This document shows positions 25,680 to 31,294 of a DNA stretch of 40,323 bases, in pieces. A model generated the notes under the pieces. That model searched no databases. It had not been told where the DNA came from and saw only the letters and a list, made by a program, of their open reading frames with translations. The translations under genes and the position numbers were made by a program. The DNA is from Bacteroidota bacterium (lineage in GTDB: Bacteria > Bacteroidota > Bacteroidia > B-17B0 > Aurantibacillaceae). How positions within the stretch are numbered: the first letter of the stretch is position 1; every line of letters begins with the position of its first letter. The stretch is from the NCBI GenBank assembly GCA_900299295.1, contig OMJH01000004.1, forward strand, positions 1-40,323, written 5' to 3'.

Positions 25680-26810
25680 GTGAAATCAGTTGTAATAATT
25701 GTCTTAATCATTGTTGCAAGTTTTTTTTCTTGCGTTGATAAAAAGGACAAGGATGTAAGGTCAAGGCATAACTCCCGGGTTGAATCAGCGCTTTTTTCCA
25801 TTGTTCAAAATAAGGGTTTTAAAGTCGTACATGTTTTTAAAGATAATTTCCATCAAGATACACTGTTTAATTATGTGCTTTATCATCGTGGGGAAATAAA
25901 ACCCTCTGTGAATTTTTCTGCTGTTTATATTGAGACTCCTGTGCGAAGAGTCGCATGTCTGTCGAACATCTATGTGGGTTGCCTGACTCGATTGGGTCTT
26001 ACGCACACAATTGTGGGTGTTGATGACGCCAAAAATATTTGTAATGCTGAAGTTCGCCAAGGTGTAGCATCAGGTCAAATCCAGGAATTAAATGTTGGAG
26101 AAAATCTCAATATCGAAAAAGTGCTACTTCTTCATCCTGACATTATTTTTCGTTTTGGAACAGGTAATGAACTTTTAGATTTTCCGGAATTACTGAAACA
26201 ATCTGATATCCCTGTTGCAATAAGTTTGGATTACCGTGAAGCAAATCCATTAATCCGGGCATCTTGGTTAAAATTTGTTGCAGCCTTTTTTGAGATGGAT
26301 TCTGACGCTGATTCTATTTTAAATACAATTAATCAAAATTACAATTCGTTAAACGAAAAAGTAAGAAACACTTCTTTTCATCCTACGGTTGTTACGGAAG
26401 TACCTTATAAAGAGGTATGGTATGTTCCCGGAGGCAAAAGCTACATGGCAGCACTTTTAAAGGATGCTGGTGCGAACTATCTATGGGCGGATGATCAACA
26501 TGAAGGAAGTCTTGCGCTTTCATTCGAACAAGTTTTTAAAAAAGCAGTAAATGCGGACTTCTGGTTAAATGTGCAACACTGTAAAACAATAAATGAAGTG
26601 GAAAATTATGATTCACGAAATAAAAAGTTTAAGGCATTTCTTAATAGAAATATTTATAATAATGATTTAAGAAATACAAAATCAGGAGCTTTTGCGTATT
26701 GGGAAACAGGTTTAATTTCACCGGATGAACTACTAGCCGATCTAATTTCTATCTTTCATCCTGAATTATTGCCCAATCGTCAGTTCAGGTATTATCGAAA
26801 ATTAAATTGA
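25680..26810 (+). CDS. Substrate-binding lipoprotein of a metal-chelate/cobalamin-type ABC importer
   Basis: 376 residues. A type II signal peptide ends at C18 (ASFFSC), placing the protein as a lipoprotein. The body follows the class III periplasmic-binding (BtuF/FepB) fold, with VACLSNIYVGCLTRLGL and the DYREANPLIRASWLKF stretch seen in Bacteroidota relatives of siderophore or cobalamin binding proteins. Start is GTG at 25680, since no ATG precedes the signal peptide. Its stop overlaps the permease start. No TonB receptor or riboswitch is visible; only 54 bp separate it from the divergent Ppx/GppA gene. The ligand is undetermined: cobalamin, haem or ferric siderophore are all possible. Confidence 0.88.
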   Translation: MKSVVIIVLIIVASFFSCVDKKDKDVRSRHNSRVESALFSIVQNKGFKVVHVFKDNFHQDTLFNYVLYHRGEIKPSVNFSAVYIETPVRRVACLSNIYVGCLTRLGLTHTIVGVDDAKNICNAEVRQGVASGQIQELNVGENLNIEKVLLLHPDIIFRFGTGNELLDFPELLKQSDIPVAISLDYREANPLIRASWLKFVAAFFEMDSDADSILNTINQNYNSLNEKVRNTSFHPTVVTEVPYKEVWYVPGGKSYMAALLKDAGANYLWADDQHEGSLALSFEQVFKKAVNADFWLNVQHCKTINEVENYDSRNKKFKAFLNRNIYNNDLRNTKSGAFAYWETGLISPDELLADLISIFHPELLPNRQFRYYRKLN

Positions 26811-27835
26811 AAAATTCAGCTTCTACACGTTTAAAATTTTTATTTGCTTGCATTGTCATGTTGCTCGCTTTTCTCTTTTCCTTGTCTTCAGGTGTTTCTG
26901 ATTTGGGCGCGACCGAAATAATTCGGATTTTATTTAATAACTCGACTCCCGAATTACTTAAGGATATTTTTTTTCAGTTTCGTTTACCAAAAACATTTAC
27001 AGCTATTCTCGCCGGAATGGCCTTGTCTGTATCAGGCTTATTAATGCAAACCTTGTTTCGGAATCCGCTTGCCGGTCCTTACGTATTAGGAATTACCGGG
27101 GGATCAAATTTGATGGTAGCATTACTGGTAATGGGCACAACGGCTGCAGAAATTCAATTTACTTCCGTAGTCAATAATATTGCAGTTCCTGTTTCTGCTG
27201 CAATCGGCGCGTTAATCGCCTTGTTTTTTATTCTTCTGATTTCAATAAAGGTTCATTCTTCGGTTTCGTTGTTATTGGCTGGTTTAATGTTAGGATTTAT
27301 ATACGGTTCAATACAAAATATCCTTGAATTTCTGGCAAGTCCTGAGGCTATAAAACGATTTACCTTGTGGAGCATGGGTAGTTTGGGAAATGTATCTATA
27401 CATCAGCTTTTTTTACTTTCGTTATTTGTTTTACCTGGATTTCTTTTCGCATTTTTCCTATCCAAACAGCTTGATGTTTTTATGTTGGGCGATGATTATT
27501 CAACTTCTTTAGGAATAAATTTAAATTTTTTCAGGTGGTCTGTTGTGCTCGTTACCGCTCTGCTCACCGGTGTTGTTGTTGCATACTGCGGGCCAATTGC
27601 ATTTATTGGCCTTGCCGTTCCTCATTTAACCCGAATGATCTGGTTAACGCCCCATCATCGTATATTAGTTCCTGCCACTGCAATAACCGGTGCAACCTTA
27701 TTGTTGTTATGCGACGGATTAGGGAATATGTTTTCGAATCATTTTGTGATTCCAATTAACATTGTTACCTCTTTAATCGGGGCACCTTTCGTTTTATATT
27801 TACTATTTCGAAACACAACATTTCAATTTGGGTAA
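26807..27835 (+). CDS. FecCD-family ABC importer permease
   Basis: 342 residues with about nine or ten membrane helices, the inner-membrane channel for the binding protein upstream. Typical FecCD features are visible: FRLPKTFTAILAGMALSVSGLLMQ, RNPLAGPYVLGI, the MLGDDYSTSLGIN region and the C-terminal GPIAFIGLAVPHLTR. It opens with TTG at 26807, which overlaps the TGA stop of the binding-protein gene, an arrangement expected of coupled translation. It ends by overlapping the ATPase start by one base. Substrate not readable. Confidence 0.92.
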   Translation: MKNSASTRLKFLFACIVMLLAFLFSLSSGVSDLGATEIIRILFNNSTPELLKDIFFQFRLPKTFTAILAGMALSVSGLLMQTLFRNPLAGPYVLGITGGSNLMVALLVMGTTAAEIQFTSVVNNIAVPVSAAIGALIALFFILLISIKVHSSVSLLLAGLMLGFIYGSIQNILEFLASPEAIKRFTLWSMGSLGNVSIHQLFLLSLFVLPGFLFAFFLSKQLDVFMLGDDYSTSLGINLNFFRWSVVLVTALLTGVVVAYCGPIAFIGLAVPHLTRMIWLTPHHRILVPATAITGATLLLLCDGLGNMFSNHFVIPINIVTSLIGAPFVLYLLFRNTTFQFG

Positions 27836-28614
27836 TGGCCACACATGAACTGGATTTAAAAAATGTTTCTATTGGCTATGGAAAGAATAAAATTCTTTTT
27901 AATGAATTAAGTTTTTCCATTGGTTCAGGTGTTTCTTCGATAATTGGTTTAAATGGAAGCGGGAAATCAACATTGATAAAATCGATTGCCGGATTACTCC
28001 CTTTACAGCAGGGTAAAATATTTTTAGATCGGAAAGACACCGCTGAATGGTCGGCAGTTGAAAAGGCAAGGAAATTCAGCATTTTATTAACCCAGCGTCC
28101 CAAATTACCCTACTTTTCAGTTTATGATTTTGTTGCTATGGGACGAAGTCCATATACTTCAATTACCGGGAAATTGACCCCTGAAGATGTTGAACAGATT
28201 GAAAAGGCATTAATAAAATGTGGTATTGAAAGTTTAAGAAATTCTTTAATTGATGAAATAAGTGACGGGCAACGACAAAAATGTGCGCTTGCTTGTGCAA
28301 TTGCTCAACAAACACCGGTTATTTTGCTGGATGAACCCACTACATTTCTTGACTTCCGTTCTCGATATTCCTGGATGGAATTGTTGCAATCTCTTGCCGC
28401 AGATGAAGGCAAAATCATTTTATTTGCCTCTCACGATCTTGAGGCCGTTTTTCATTTTTCCTCGCAGTGTATTTTACTCACAGAAAGTGGTAAAATTGAA
28501 TTAATCGTAAAAGACAACTTTCATTCCTCGATCGCCATCAGTGAAATGCTAAAAAATTCCTCCTTGAAATTTGACGGCGATCACTTACGTTTCTTACATT
28601 CCGCAAATAGCTAA
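27835..28614 (+). CDS. ABC importer ATPase (FepC/BtuD type)
   Basis: 259 residues, cytosolic. Walker A GLNGSGKST near 42-50, signature ISDGQRQK near 141-148 (this form with D instead of the second G is common in Bacteroidota relatives), Walker B VILLDEPTTFLD near 162-173, and H-loop FASHD near 199-203. It drives the FecCD permease encoded just upstream. Start is the ATG at 27835, sharing a base with the permease stop (TAATG). It ends with the same type of overlap into the WD40 gene. All motifs appear competent. Confidence 0.93.
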   Translation: MATHELDLKNVSIGYGKNKILFNELSFSIGSGVSSIIGLNGSGKSTLIKSIAGLLPLQQGKIFLDRKDTAEWSAVEKARKFSILLTQRPKLPYFSVYDFVAMGRSPYTSITGKLTPEDVEQIEKALIKCGIESLRNSLIDEISDGQRQKCALACAIAQQTPVILLDEPTTFLDFRSRYSWMELLQSLAADEGKIILFASHDLEAVFHFSSQCILLTESGKIELIVKDNFHSSIAISEMLKNSSLKFDGDHLRFLHSANS

Positions 28615-29519
28615 TGGTACGTGTTAAACAAGTTTTTTCTTTATCAGGTCACGCTGCCGCCATTTATTTTTTATGTGAGGGTACAAGACGCGGTACAGTT
28701 ATAAGCGGAGGCGCAGACAAGTTTATTGCGCAATGGAATCTTGAAGATGGAACTCAGGATAAATTTTTTGCTAAACTTCCTTCGCCTATTTTTTCTATGC
28801 TAAATTTACCGGAGGCGCAGCAGTTATGGATAGGTACAGCCAACGGAAATATTCATGTAATTGATACAAAATCAAATCGTGAAATTCATACCTTTTCGTT
28901 TCATAAAGCTCAAGTATTTTGCATTGAGCAATCTCCCAAAAATGGTTTGGTTTACACATGTGCAGGCGACGGGACTCTCGCCCTTTTTGATAATGAAAAG
29001 CTAACTAATTTAGAATTTATCAAAGTAAGTCAGCAAAAACTGCGTTCCATTAATTTTTTGCAAAACAATATTTTAATTGCCGAGGGCGGTGGGAATAGTT
29101 TGCTGTTTGATGCTGCTTCAAGTAGTGTTGTAACGACTTTCAAATCTGATTCTTTTGCTACCAATTGCCATCTCTTTTCTCAGCAAGGTTCTCTTCTTGT
29201 TTCCGGAGGCAGAGATGCACACTTGCGCATTTGGGATATCGCTGATAACTTTAAGTTGCTGAAAAAAATTCCCGCTCATAATTTTGCCATTTACCGTTTG
29301 TTATGTCTCAAAACGGACAAACTTTTTGCAACTGCAAGCAGGGACAAAACCATTAAACTTTGGGACGCTGAATTTCGTCCGTTGTTGAGAATTAACCACG
29401 AACAATTTAAGGGACACACACATTCTGTGAACGCTTTATATTGGAATGAGGAACTAAATCTTCTTGTATCAGCGGGAGATGATCACCGTATAATGGCTTG
29501 GAAATTGGGGTTTGATTGA
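28614..29519 (+). CDS. Cytoplasmic seven-bladed WD40-repeat protein, coupled to the importer
   Basis: 301 residues with no signal peptide or membrane segment. I count seven repeats, from GHAAAIYF to the final AWKL, each ending in a D-x-x-I-x-x-W/F-D type strand (GADKFIAQWN, GDGTLALFD, GRDAHLRIWD, SRDKTIKLWD, GDDHRIMAWK). That is one complete propeller, normally a protein-interaction platform. The ATG at 28614 overlaps the ATPase stop by one base (TAATG), so it is very probably made with the importer. A role in the importer, such as binding the ATPase or the incoming ligand, is inferred only from this position. No enzymatic domain is fused. Confidence 0.88.
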   Translation: MVRVKQVFSLSGHAAAIYFLCEGTRRGTVISGGADKFIAQWNLEDGTQDKFFAKLPSPIFSMLNLPEAQQLWIGTANGNIHVIDTKSNREIHTFSFHKAQVFCIEQSPKNGLVYTCAGDGTLALFDNEKLTNLEFIKVSQQKLRSINFLQNNILIAEGGGNSLLFDAASSSVVTTFKSDSFATNCHLFSQQGSLLVSGGRDAHLRIWDIADNFKLLKKIPAHNFAIYRLLCLKTDKLFATASRDKTIKLWDAEFRPLLRINHEQFKGHTHSVNALYWNEELNLLVSAGDDHRIMAWKLGFD

Positions 29520-29602: not shown

Positions 29603-30868
29603 ATGCGGAAATTCTTTTTTCTTTTATTCGCTGCATTTTTCTCCGTATCACTTTTTGGCACCTATATTCTGGTTCCAATGGATAATTTTCAGAAAAACCA
29701 CTTAAAGTCATATGGAATTGCCTACTGGGTTTTATCAAACGATATTGAGGTACAATGGTTGTTAAATTACCGTGGCGGAAGTTTTTTATTCCAGTATAAC
29801 AAGCAATTAGCACTGGAGTGTACAACCCGTGATGTTACATTTGAAACACTTCCTGATGCTCAGGTAGCTGCGCTGCTCGATGAAATCAGTAATCCTGAAG
29901 TTAATCAGGATGCAATTAAACTCCAGAAAGCTCCACGCATGGCTGTTTATTCACCGAAAGGGAAACAGCCATGGGATGATGCCGTAACGCTTGTACTTAC
30001 CTACGCAGAAATTCCTTATGACGTAATTTACGACGAAGAAATTTTATCCGATGTCTTGCCGAAGTACGATTGGTTGCATTTGCATCACGAAGATTTTACC
30101 GGACAGTACGGACGTTTTTACAGCAGTTACCGAAATGCACCCTGGTACAAGGCTGAGGTAAAATCGAATGAGGACATGGCAAAGAAACTAGGCTATGGAA
30201 AAGTTTCCCAAATGAAATTGGCTGTTGCTCAAAAAATAAGGGATTATTGTTTTGGGGGTGGGTTTTTATTTGCCATGTGCTCCGCATCTGATAGTTATGA
30301 CGTTGCGCTTGCCGCGGAAGGAGTGGATATTTGTGCGGATATTTTTGATTACGATGCCGCAGATCCTTCCATGAATAAGAAAATCGATTACTCTAAATGT
30401 TTTGCATTCGAAAACTTTACACTCAGTACTAATCCTTATGAATATGAGTTTTCAAGTATAGATACCTACAACTCACGAAGTGCTGCGGGCGTTTCGAAGG
30501 AAAATGATTTTTTTACTCTTTTTGATTTTTCTGCAAAATGGGATCCTGTTCCGAGTATGTTGTGCCAGAATCATGAAACCATGATTAAAGGATTCTGGGG
30601 GCAGACGGTTGGATATGACAAGCGATATATCAAAAAAAATGTTTTGGTGATGGGGGAAAATAAATCCATCAACGAGGCTCGCTACATTCATGGTGAATTC
30701 GGAAAAGGTACCTGGAGTTTTTATGGCGGACACGACCCGGAAGATTATCAGCACCGGGTGGAGGATCCGCCTACCGATTTAAAATTACATCCCAATTCTG
30801 CCGGATACCGTCTCATCTTAAATAACGTTTTGTTCCCGGCTGCCAAAAAGAAAAAACGCCAAACATAG
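29603..30868 (+). CDS. Secreted conserved Bacteroidota protein with class I amidotransferase-like fold (often mislabelled asparagine synthetase B)
   Basis: 421 residues. A signal peptide (MRKFFFLLFAAFFSVSLFG) precedes a domain opening TYILVPMDNFQKNHLKSYG. I recall this kind of sequence being called asparagine synthetase B in related genomes, but I see neither the N-terminal catalytic cysteine at position 2 nor the SGG(L/I)DS pyrophosphatase loop of AsnB. Instead residues about 110-260 look like a GATase1/ThuA-like fold, with the nucleophile-elbow-like FAMCSASDS near 227-235 and a C-terminal GKGTWSFYGGHDPEDY. Activity is unknown and may be absent. It is followed 3 nt later by a small helical protein, so the two are probably cotranscribed. 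Confidence 0.72.
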   Translation: MRKFFFLLFAAFFSVSLFGTYILVPMDNFQKNHLKSYGIAYWVLSNDIEVQWLLNYRGGSFLFQYNKQLALECTTRDVTFETLPDAQVAALLDEISNPEVNQDAIKLQKAPRMAVYSPKGKQPWDDAVTLVLTYAEIPYDVIYDEEILSDVLPKYDWLHLHHEDFTGQYGRFYSSYRNAPWYKAEVKSNEDMAKKLGYGKVSQMKLAVAQKIRDYCFGGGFLFAMCSASDSYDVALAAEGVDICADIFDYDAADPSMNKKIDYSKCFAFENFTLSTNPYEYEFSSIDTYNSRSAAGVSKENDFFTLFDFSAKWDPVPSMLCQNHETMIKGFWGQTVGYDKRYIKKNVLVMGENKSINEARYIHGEFGKGTWSFYGGHDPEDYQHRVEDPPTDLKLHPNSAGYRLILNNVLFPAAKKKKRQT

Positions 30869-30871
30869 AGG

Positions 30872-31294
30872 ATGTATCGCAAGGATTACATCATGCGCAT
30901 GGTGGAAGATTTCGGGCGTTTATTGAATGAAATTATTCACCTACGTAAAGAATCAAAATTAACGGAAGCAGAAAAGAAAATTTCTGCCGCAGGTGAGGTT
31001 TATTTTACTTTTTCATTTGAAGAAGTTCTGAATTTTCCTGATGATGGTTTGCGCGAGGAACTTATTTCTAAAAAGAAACTACACCCGCAACAAATCAGAA
31101 TGCTTGCTGAGATTTTTTTTCAAAAAGGTTGGATATTCTTGGATAAAAACGAAAATTTAAAAATTAATTATTTTAAAAGATCATTGACGCTGTTCAAGAT
31201 GTTTCTTGAGCTTGAACCAAGCCTTTTTGATGTAGAGGTAATTCAACGACTTTCCATTTTGCATGATTTATGTAGTTCCACCGGTCTGAATTAA
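30872..31294 (+). CDS. Small helical protein (DUF6483-like)
   Basis: 140 residues, predicted almost entirely helical and cytosolic. The opening MYRKDYIMRMVEDFGRLLNEI resembles the start of DUF6483-type proteins, and the LRKESKLTEAEKKI and FFQKGWIFLDKN stretches are TPR-like. Function unknown. It starts 3 nt after the secreted amidotransferase-like gene. It differs from that neighbour in having no export signal, so a shared function is not obvious. Name match from memory only. Confidence 0.6.
   Translation: MYRKDYIMRMVEDFGRLLNEIIHLRKESKLTEAEKKISAAGEVYFTFSFEEVLNFPDDGLREELISKKKLHPQQIRMLAEIFFQKGWIFLDKNENLKINYFKRSLTLFKMFLELEPSLFDVEVIQRLSILHDLCSSTGLN

Follow-up and report, generated by a model that had tools for sequence, protein, structure and literature searches.

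The cobalamin importer BtuFCD combines a binding protein, a FecCD-type permease and an ATPase, and DUF71 genes often stand in clusters with genes for B12 transport, as described in the accessible text of PMC3541065. For WD40 propellers, the accessible part of a prokaryotic survey (PMC5587647) reports no WD40 gene with broadly conserved neighbours across seven Cyanobacteria, some neighbours being conserved within a family, and lists one Nostocales WD40 gene that adjoins a 'cobalamin synthesis protein, P47K'. Our literature searches found no report of the present WD40 protein beside importers or in Bacteroidota, and neither the family libraries nor the literature searched held a named function for the WD40 family considered here. 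The locus analysed here lies in the window, a stretch of 40,323 nucleotides from a Bacteroidota genome. Like BtuFCD, the window has a binding protein (Peripla_BP_2), a FecCD permease and an ABC ATPase in one run, and so holds a complete gene set of the BtuFCD type. Unlike that system, the run has a WD40 gene added and, since an Rfam scan of the window gave no match, no cobalamin riboswitch on the importer operon; cobalamin transport here is predicted from the genes.

The four-gene run and the ligand of its importer

The WD40 gene is the fourth of a tight plus-strand run (25680-29519) that begins with the genes of the binding protein, the permease and the ATPase (Table 1). The junctions within this run overlap by 4, 1 and 1 bases, in agreement with the initial annotation, which had placed the WD40 gene as the fourth member of a tightly overlapping importer operon and had singled out the ATPase and WD40 genes together (27835-29519). 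At the last junction, gcTAATGgta, the ATPase stop codon (28612-28614) and the WD40 ATG (28614-28616) have one base in common, which confirms that the WD40 gene starts inside the stop of the ATPase gene. Because the four genes are so tightly spaced, the WD40 gene is likely co-transcribed with the importer and translated by re-initiation at the TAATG, and the tight overlap could provide stoichiometric co-expression of the WD40 protein and the ATPase. The one-base overlap is itself an ordinary arrangement. Across 129 WD40 loci, counted with a simple gene caller and genes of at least 100 aa, overlaps of 1 or 4 bases join the WD40 gene to its upstream neighbour in 5 of 63 pairs (7.9%), as against 62 of 589 other same-strand pairs (10.5%), and are thus no commoner than background. 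Downstream, a gene at 29603 starts 83 bases past the WD40 gene; its product of 421 aa matches nothing in Pfam at E<=0.001, and the same region (29603-31294) also encodes a protein of 140 aa that weakly matches DUF6483. Counterparts of both genes follow the WD40 gene in genome G001 as well (L033), where the counterpart of the 421-aa protein is 78% identical.

Table 1. Coordinates of the importer genes, the WD40 gene and their junction in the window.
Feature	Coordinates	Strand	Remarks
Periplasmic binding protein of importer	25680..26810	+	Peripla_BP_2 (PF01497), E 5.7e-22; GTG start as called
FecCD-type permease	26807..27835	+	FecCD, E 1.2e-80
Importer ATPase, 259 aa	27835..28614	+	ABC_tran, E 4.5e-25; last stop base shared with WD40 start
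Soluble seven-bladed WD40 propeller, 301 aa	28614..29519	+	WD40, E 2.9e-31
TAATG stop/start overlap	28612..28616	+	possible translational coupling

The ligand of the importer was considered from the permease, the binding protein and the remainder of the genome (G000). The permease is the sole FecCD match in this 93%-complete genome, and its nearest solved relatives are the HmuU and BtuC structures; its best NCBIfam equivalog is BtuC, at 192.4 bits, which lies under the cut-off of 334. For the binding protein, solved structures gave no useful match, the nearest standing at E 0.35 or worse. The genome contains one cobalamin riboswitch match (C135:4417-4615), on a different contig from the importer. 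This riboswitch heads an operon (L237:4417-9635) encoding a TonB receptor, a DUF4465 protein, an unknown surface protein and a DUF5074 protein, the last of which we take to correspond to BtuG. The surface protein and the protein at the corresponding position in genome G035 (L038) share 56% identity across 261 columns, and a four-gene B12 receptor operon is therefore common to two families. DUF4465 proteins are described as B12 binders in the accessible text of PMC13398666. Because the genome combines a single FecCD match with this riboswitch-headed receptor operon, cobalamin is by context the most likely ligand of the importer, which we file as FecCD type with its transport predicted, and a metal chelate is less likely. 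Of the two ligands allowed by the initial annotation, metal chelate or cobalamin, the second is thus favoured. A relative of the same surface protein also occurs one gene beyond the WD40 gene in another genome (G666; L203:6535-7593).

The WD40 protein and its family

The WD40 protein matched PF00400 at 107 bits (cut-off 27), together with many other propeller models, whereas NCBIfam gave no match. No signal peptide or membrane segment is obvious in the protein by eye. An AlphaFold2 model built with 84 family sequences (pLDDT 97.1, pTM 0.93, 28 strands) predicts a clean, closed propeller of seven four-stranded blades, and the soluble seven-bladed protein proposed in the initial annotation is upheld. 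Searches of this model with Foldseek and VIA-align returned generic WD40 propellers (such as PLRG1, LIS1, COPI beta-prime and PkwA), with solved examples at Z up to 38.1, and these generic matches suggest no function. In the 84-row alignment ten columns are invariant (R144, H222, S242, D244, K245, W250, H268, N273, D289 and D290), and the family consensus includes SGGRDAHL, IPAHNxAIY and ATASRDKTIK. The loops of the top face have a mean conservation of 0.578 compared to 0.352 for the bottom face, and columns conserved at 90% or more number 15 in the top loops and 0 in the bottom loops. The structural GH and D positions found in WD40 repeats generally account for part of this top-face conservation.

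A sample of 395 genomes from the class, presumably Bacteroidia, gave matches to this full-length family in 230, one in each (15-row profile, E<=1e-55), and with the same profile 10 of the 87 genomes of the order matched at E<=1e-45. In a sample of the phylum, 30 of 395 genomes matched below 1e-60 and all 30 fall inside the class; at 1e-20 the count rises to 158, inflated by other WD40 proteins. A scan of contigs using the single WD40 protein returned one locus only. The gene tree (49 rows including an outgroup) follows taxonomy, in that its 16 families are accounted for by 15 changes, as few as there can be, which argues that the family is old and has been inherited mainly vertically with many losses.

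Gene neighbourhoods of the WD40 family

Neighbouring genes were counted at 164 WD40 loci, a set without L103-L107, which are partial or outgroup loci, and without six duplicates, five of which were recognised by the same genome handle and one (L148) judged equal to L031 by an identical upstream protein start and gap. An importer-type ATPase lies directly upstream on the same strand at 1 of these 164 loci, the window alone; the contig of the sole genome of the same genus (G001) breaks within the WD40 gene, and 13 of the 164 loci, G001 among them, have less than 1 kb on one side. Within 3.5 kb of the WD40 gene, FecCD occurs at two loci (the window and G008), an importer binding protein in the window only, and DUF71 at four (G005, G008, G013 and G035), these 3.5-kb counts being incomplete for L150-L176 (less duplicates), where the flanks are 1.5 kb or shorter. 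The scripted gene calls used a simple longest-ORF method, and the 164 loci are a subset of the family, which has 230 matching genomes in the class sample alone. Adjacency of the WD40 gene to an importer was thus not found to recur across genera or families, and a conserved importer linkage was rejected on these counts. The initial annotation had named occurrence in this genome only as one outcome that would speak against its functional reading of the linkage, and what we observe comes close to it, with a looser cluster in one further genome.

Importer genes are also common where the WD40 gene is absent. FecCD is present in 82 of the 87 genomes of the order, in 9 of the 10 that carry the WD40 gene as against 73 of the 77 that lack it, and a cobalamin riboswitch was found in 37 of 41 relatives, compared to a strong WD40 match (E 1e-37 or better) in 15 of 41. 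Most relatives therefore keep B12 uptake genes without the WD40 gene. The proposal in the initial annotation that the WD40 protein binds the ATPase, regulates transport or passes on the ligand finds no support in the near-absence of adjacency or in the many FecCD-bearing relatives without the propeller.

The genes that do adjoin the WD40 gene are diverse. In a set of 130 loci, which probably holds one genome twice (L031/L148), an upstream gene was called in 127; it is on the same strand in 73 of these and falls in 45 clusters, with 43 of the 73 within 30 bases of the WD40 gene and 23 overlapping it. Tight joins of this kind also link the WD40 gene to unrelated genes, among them one for a permease of the FtsX type (L031) and one for a DUF71 enzyme (L034). 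Other families repeatedly show an opposite-strand PPTase, DivIVA, his genes and HSP90 near the WD40 gene, each cluster being named after one or two of its members. In a set of 140 loci that still contained six duplicates and five outgroup loci, counted up to three genes away from the WD40 gene, the PPTase cluster occurs at 21 loci in 7 families on the opposite strand, DivIVA at 16 loci in 5 families on the downstream side, and HSP90 at 13 loci in 6 families. The PPTase and DivIVA flanks (L040, L043, L075-L085, L092 and others) are the most recurrent neighbourhood of the family. At L036:6043-7884 the HSP90 gene directly adjoins the WD40 gene.

A signal related to B12 was sought in the same flanks. 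Cobalamin riboswitches occur at 2 of the 164 loci (G008 and G035), compared to about 0.6 expected in 1.65 Mb of flanks (Poisson P ~0.11 for at least 2), with the base rate taken from 51 riboswitches in 41 genomes, or ~148 Mb by rounded genome sizes. The scan relied on an nhmmer profile trained on three riboswitches, of which two lie in the counted loci, and may miss others; the profile also matched riboswitch-like sequence in four DUF71 loci outside its training (L140, L144, L145 and L147). Two riboswitch-bearing loci are compatible with chance and also with a weak link to B12. In G008 a FecCD gene, an ATPase gene and two DUF71 genes lie on one side of the WD40 gene and the riboswitch on the other. 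In G035 the WD40 gene converges on a receptor operon that starts with a riboswitch and ends in DUF71. With the surface-protein relative near the WD40 gene of G666 as a third case, B12-related genes recur next to this propeller, which speaks against its independence.

The origin of the ATPase-WD40 pair may be traced through these DUF71 loci. The gene order in G008 is DUF71-FecCD-ATPase-DUF71-WD40, in G005 and G013 (L034 and L035) a cytochrome-c-assembly gene, DUF71 and WD40 follow one another, and in G019 (L004:3-1963) the cytochrome-c-assembly gene is followed by WD40 after a 29-base gap with DUF71 missing. The WD40 tree joins the window and G001 as the sister group of G008, G019, G005 and G013, with 95% support for the six rows. 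We suggest that the WD40 gene joined a B12 cluster in the clade of these six rows, that an intermediate cluster of permease, ATPase, DUF71 and WD40 would have resembled G008, and that DUF71 would then have been lost from between the ATPase and WD40 genes in the lineage of the window. The pair thus probably arose via a G008-like cluster and loss of DUF71, in an order of loss that we infer. The permease tree (14 chosen rows) lends a G008-like ancestor no support, as the window permease groups with genus g2 and not with G008 (92% support, on a long branch). DUF71 was also considered as an obligate partner of the WD40 protein. The genome of the window has no PF01902 match, and PF01902 shows no association with the WD40 gene, being present in 4 of the 10 WD40-bearing genomes of the order and in 33 of the 77 that lack it. 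An obligate partnership is ruled out by these co-occurrence counts and by two cases that have WD40 with no DUF71 alongside.

Interpretation and comparison with known systems

We favour, with a probability of roughly 75%, a model in which the WD40 protein is an ancient, independent, scaffold-type propeller, vertically inherited and with a partner other than the importer, that came to lie behind a BtuFCD-type importer in the lineage of the window. The propeller would bind other proteins at its conserved top face, serving as a platform, and would have no role in transport. The pairing with the ATPase appears to be a chance outcome of local gene order, without joint function, because an old and widespread family sits beside many different genes elsewhere. 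A rival explanation is that the WD40 gene simply gains read-through expression from its place behind the importer and has a housekeeping role connected with one of its commoner neighbours, such as PPTase, DivIVA or HSP90. The recurrence of these three clusters within three genes of WD40 (21, 16 and 13 of 140 loci, in 7, 5 and 6 families) points in this direction, although none is general across the loci and each may reflect shared gene-order ancestry, and we consider a role of this kind improbable. The WD40 protein could instead serve the importer as an accessory subunit, docked on the ATPase dimer, that would regulate transport or take over the corrinoid. The one-base overlap, the tight four-gene run and the apparently cytoplasmic location of both proteins are consistent with this arrangement, yet direct adjacency is confined to 1 of 164 loci and a FecCD gene within 3.5 kb to 2, the order has FecCD in 82 of 87 genomes compared to WD40 in 10 of 87, tight overlaps also join the WD40 gene to unrelated genes (the FtsX-type permease of L031 and the DUF71 gene of L034), and overlaps of 1 or 4 bases do not exceed the background rate. 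Docking on the importer is accordingly rated very improbable.

Two further explanations involve corrinoid salvage. In eukaryotic diphthamide synthesis the WD40 protein Dph7, which has methylesterase activity, works in the same pathway as Dph6, and the WD40 and Dph6-like DUF71 proteins could by analogy act jointly in corrinoid salvage, the enzyme having been lost from the window. DUF71 adjoins the WD40 gene in G005, G013 and G008 and, convergently, in G035, and the clustering of DUF71 genes with B12 transport genes in the accessible text of PMC3541065 agrees with such a role. The adjacency is nonetheless limited to 4 of 164 loci, PF01902 is as frequent without the WD40 gene as with it (33 of 77 vs 4 of 10), the window genome lacks PF01902, and L004 has the WD40 gene without an adjacent DUF71, so that we give a joint role with DUF71 slightly less credence than docking on the importer. 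Least probable of all is a more local recruitment, restricted to genera g1, g5 and g8, in which the propeller would dock a BtuD-type ATPase or DUF71 and couple import to corrinoid processing, a bacterial parallel to Dph7/Dph6.

The linkage itself is ordinary, and the uncharacterised, widely kept propeller family is mildly interesting. A one-base overlap in a single genome is weak evidence for function because in other genomes this propeller gene overlaps or closely adjoins many genes of unrelated kinds. The family, with one copy in each matching genome and ten residues invariant across 84 members, offers a clean target for functional study. Among known systems, the DUF71/COG2102 B12-salvage clusters described in the accessible text of PMC3541065 have a counterpart in G008 and G035, where the WD40 gene lies within or beside such a cluster; the genome of the window differs in having no PF01902, and in that text a WD domain is mentioned for yeast Dph7 only. 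The WD40 domain of PkwA from Thermomonospora curvata (5yzv) is likewise a PF00400 protein with the seven-bladed fold, at TM 0.85-0.87 and 21-22% identity to the window protein. PkwA is described as a probable serine/threonine-protein kinase, whereas the propeller family of the window stands without an extra domain and has a consensus of its own.
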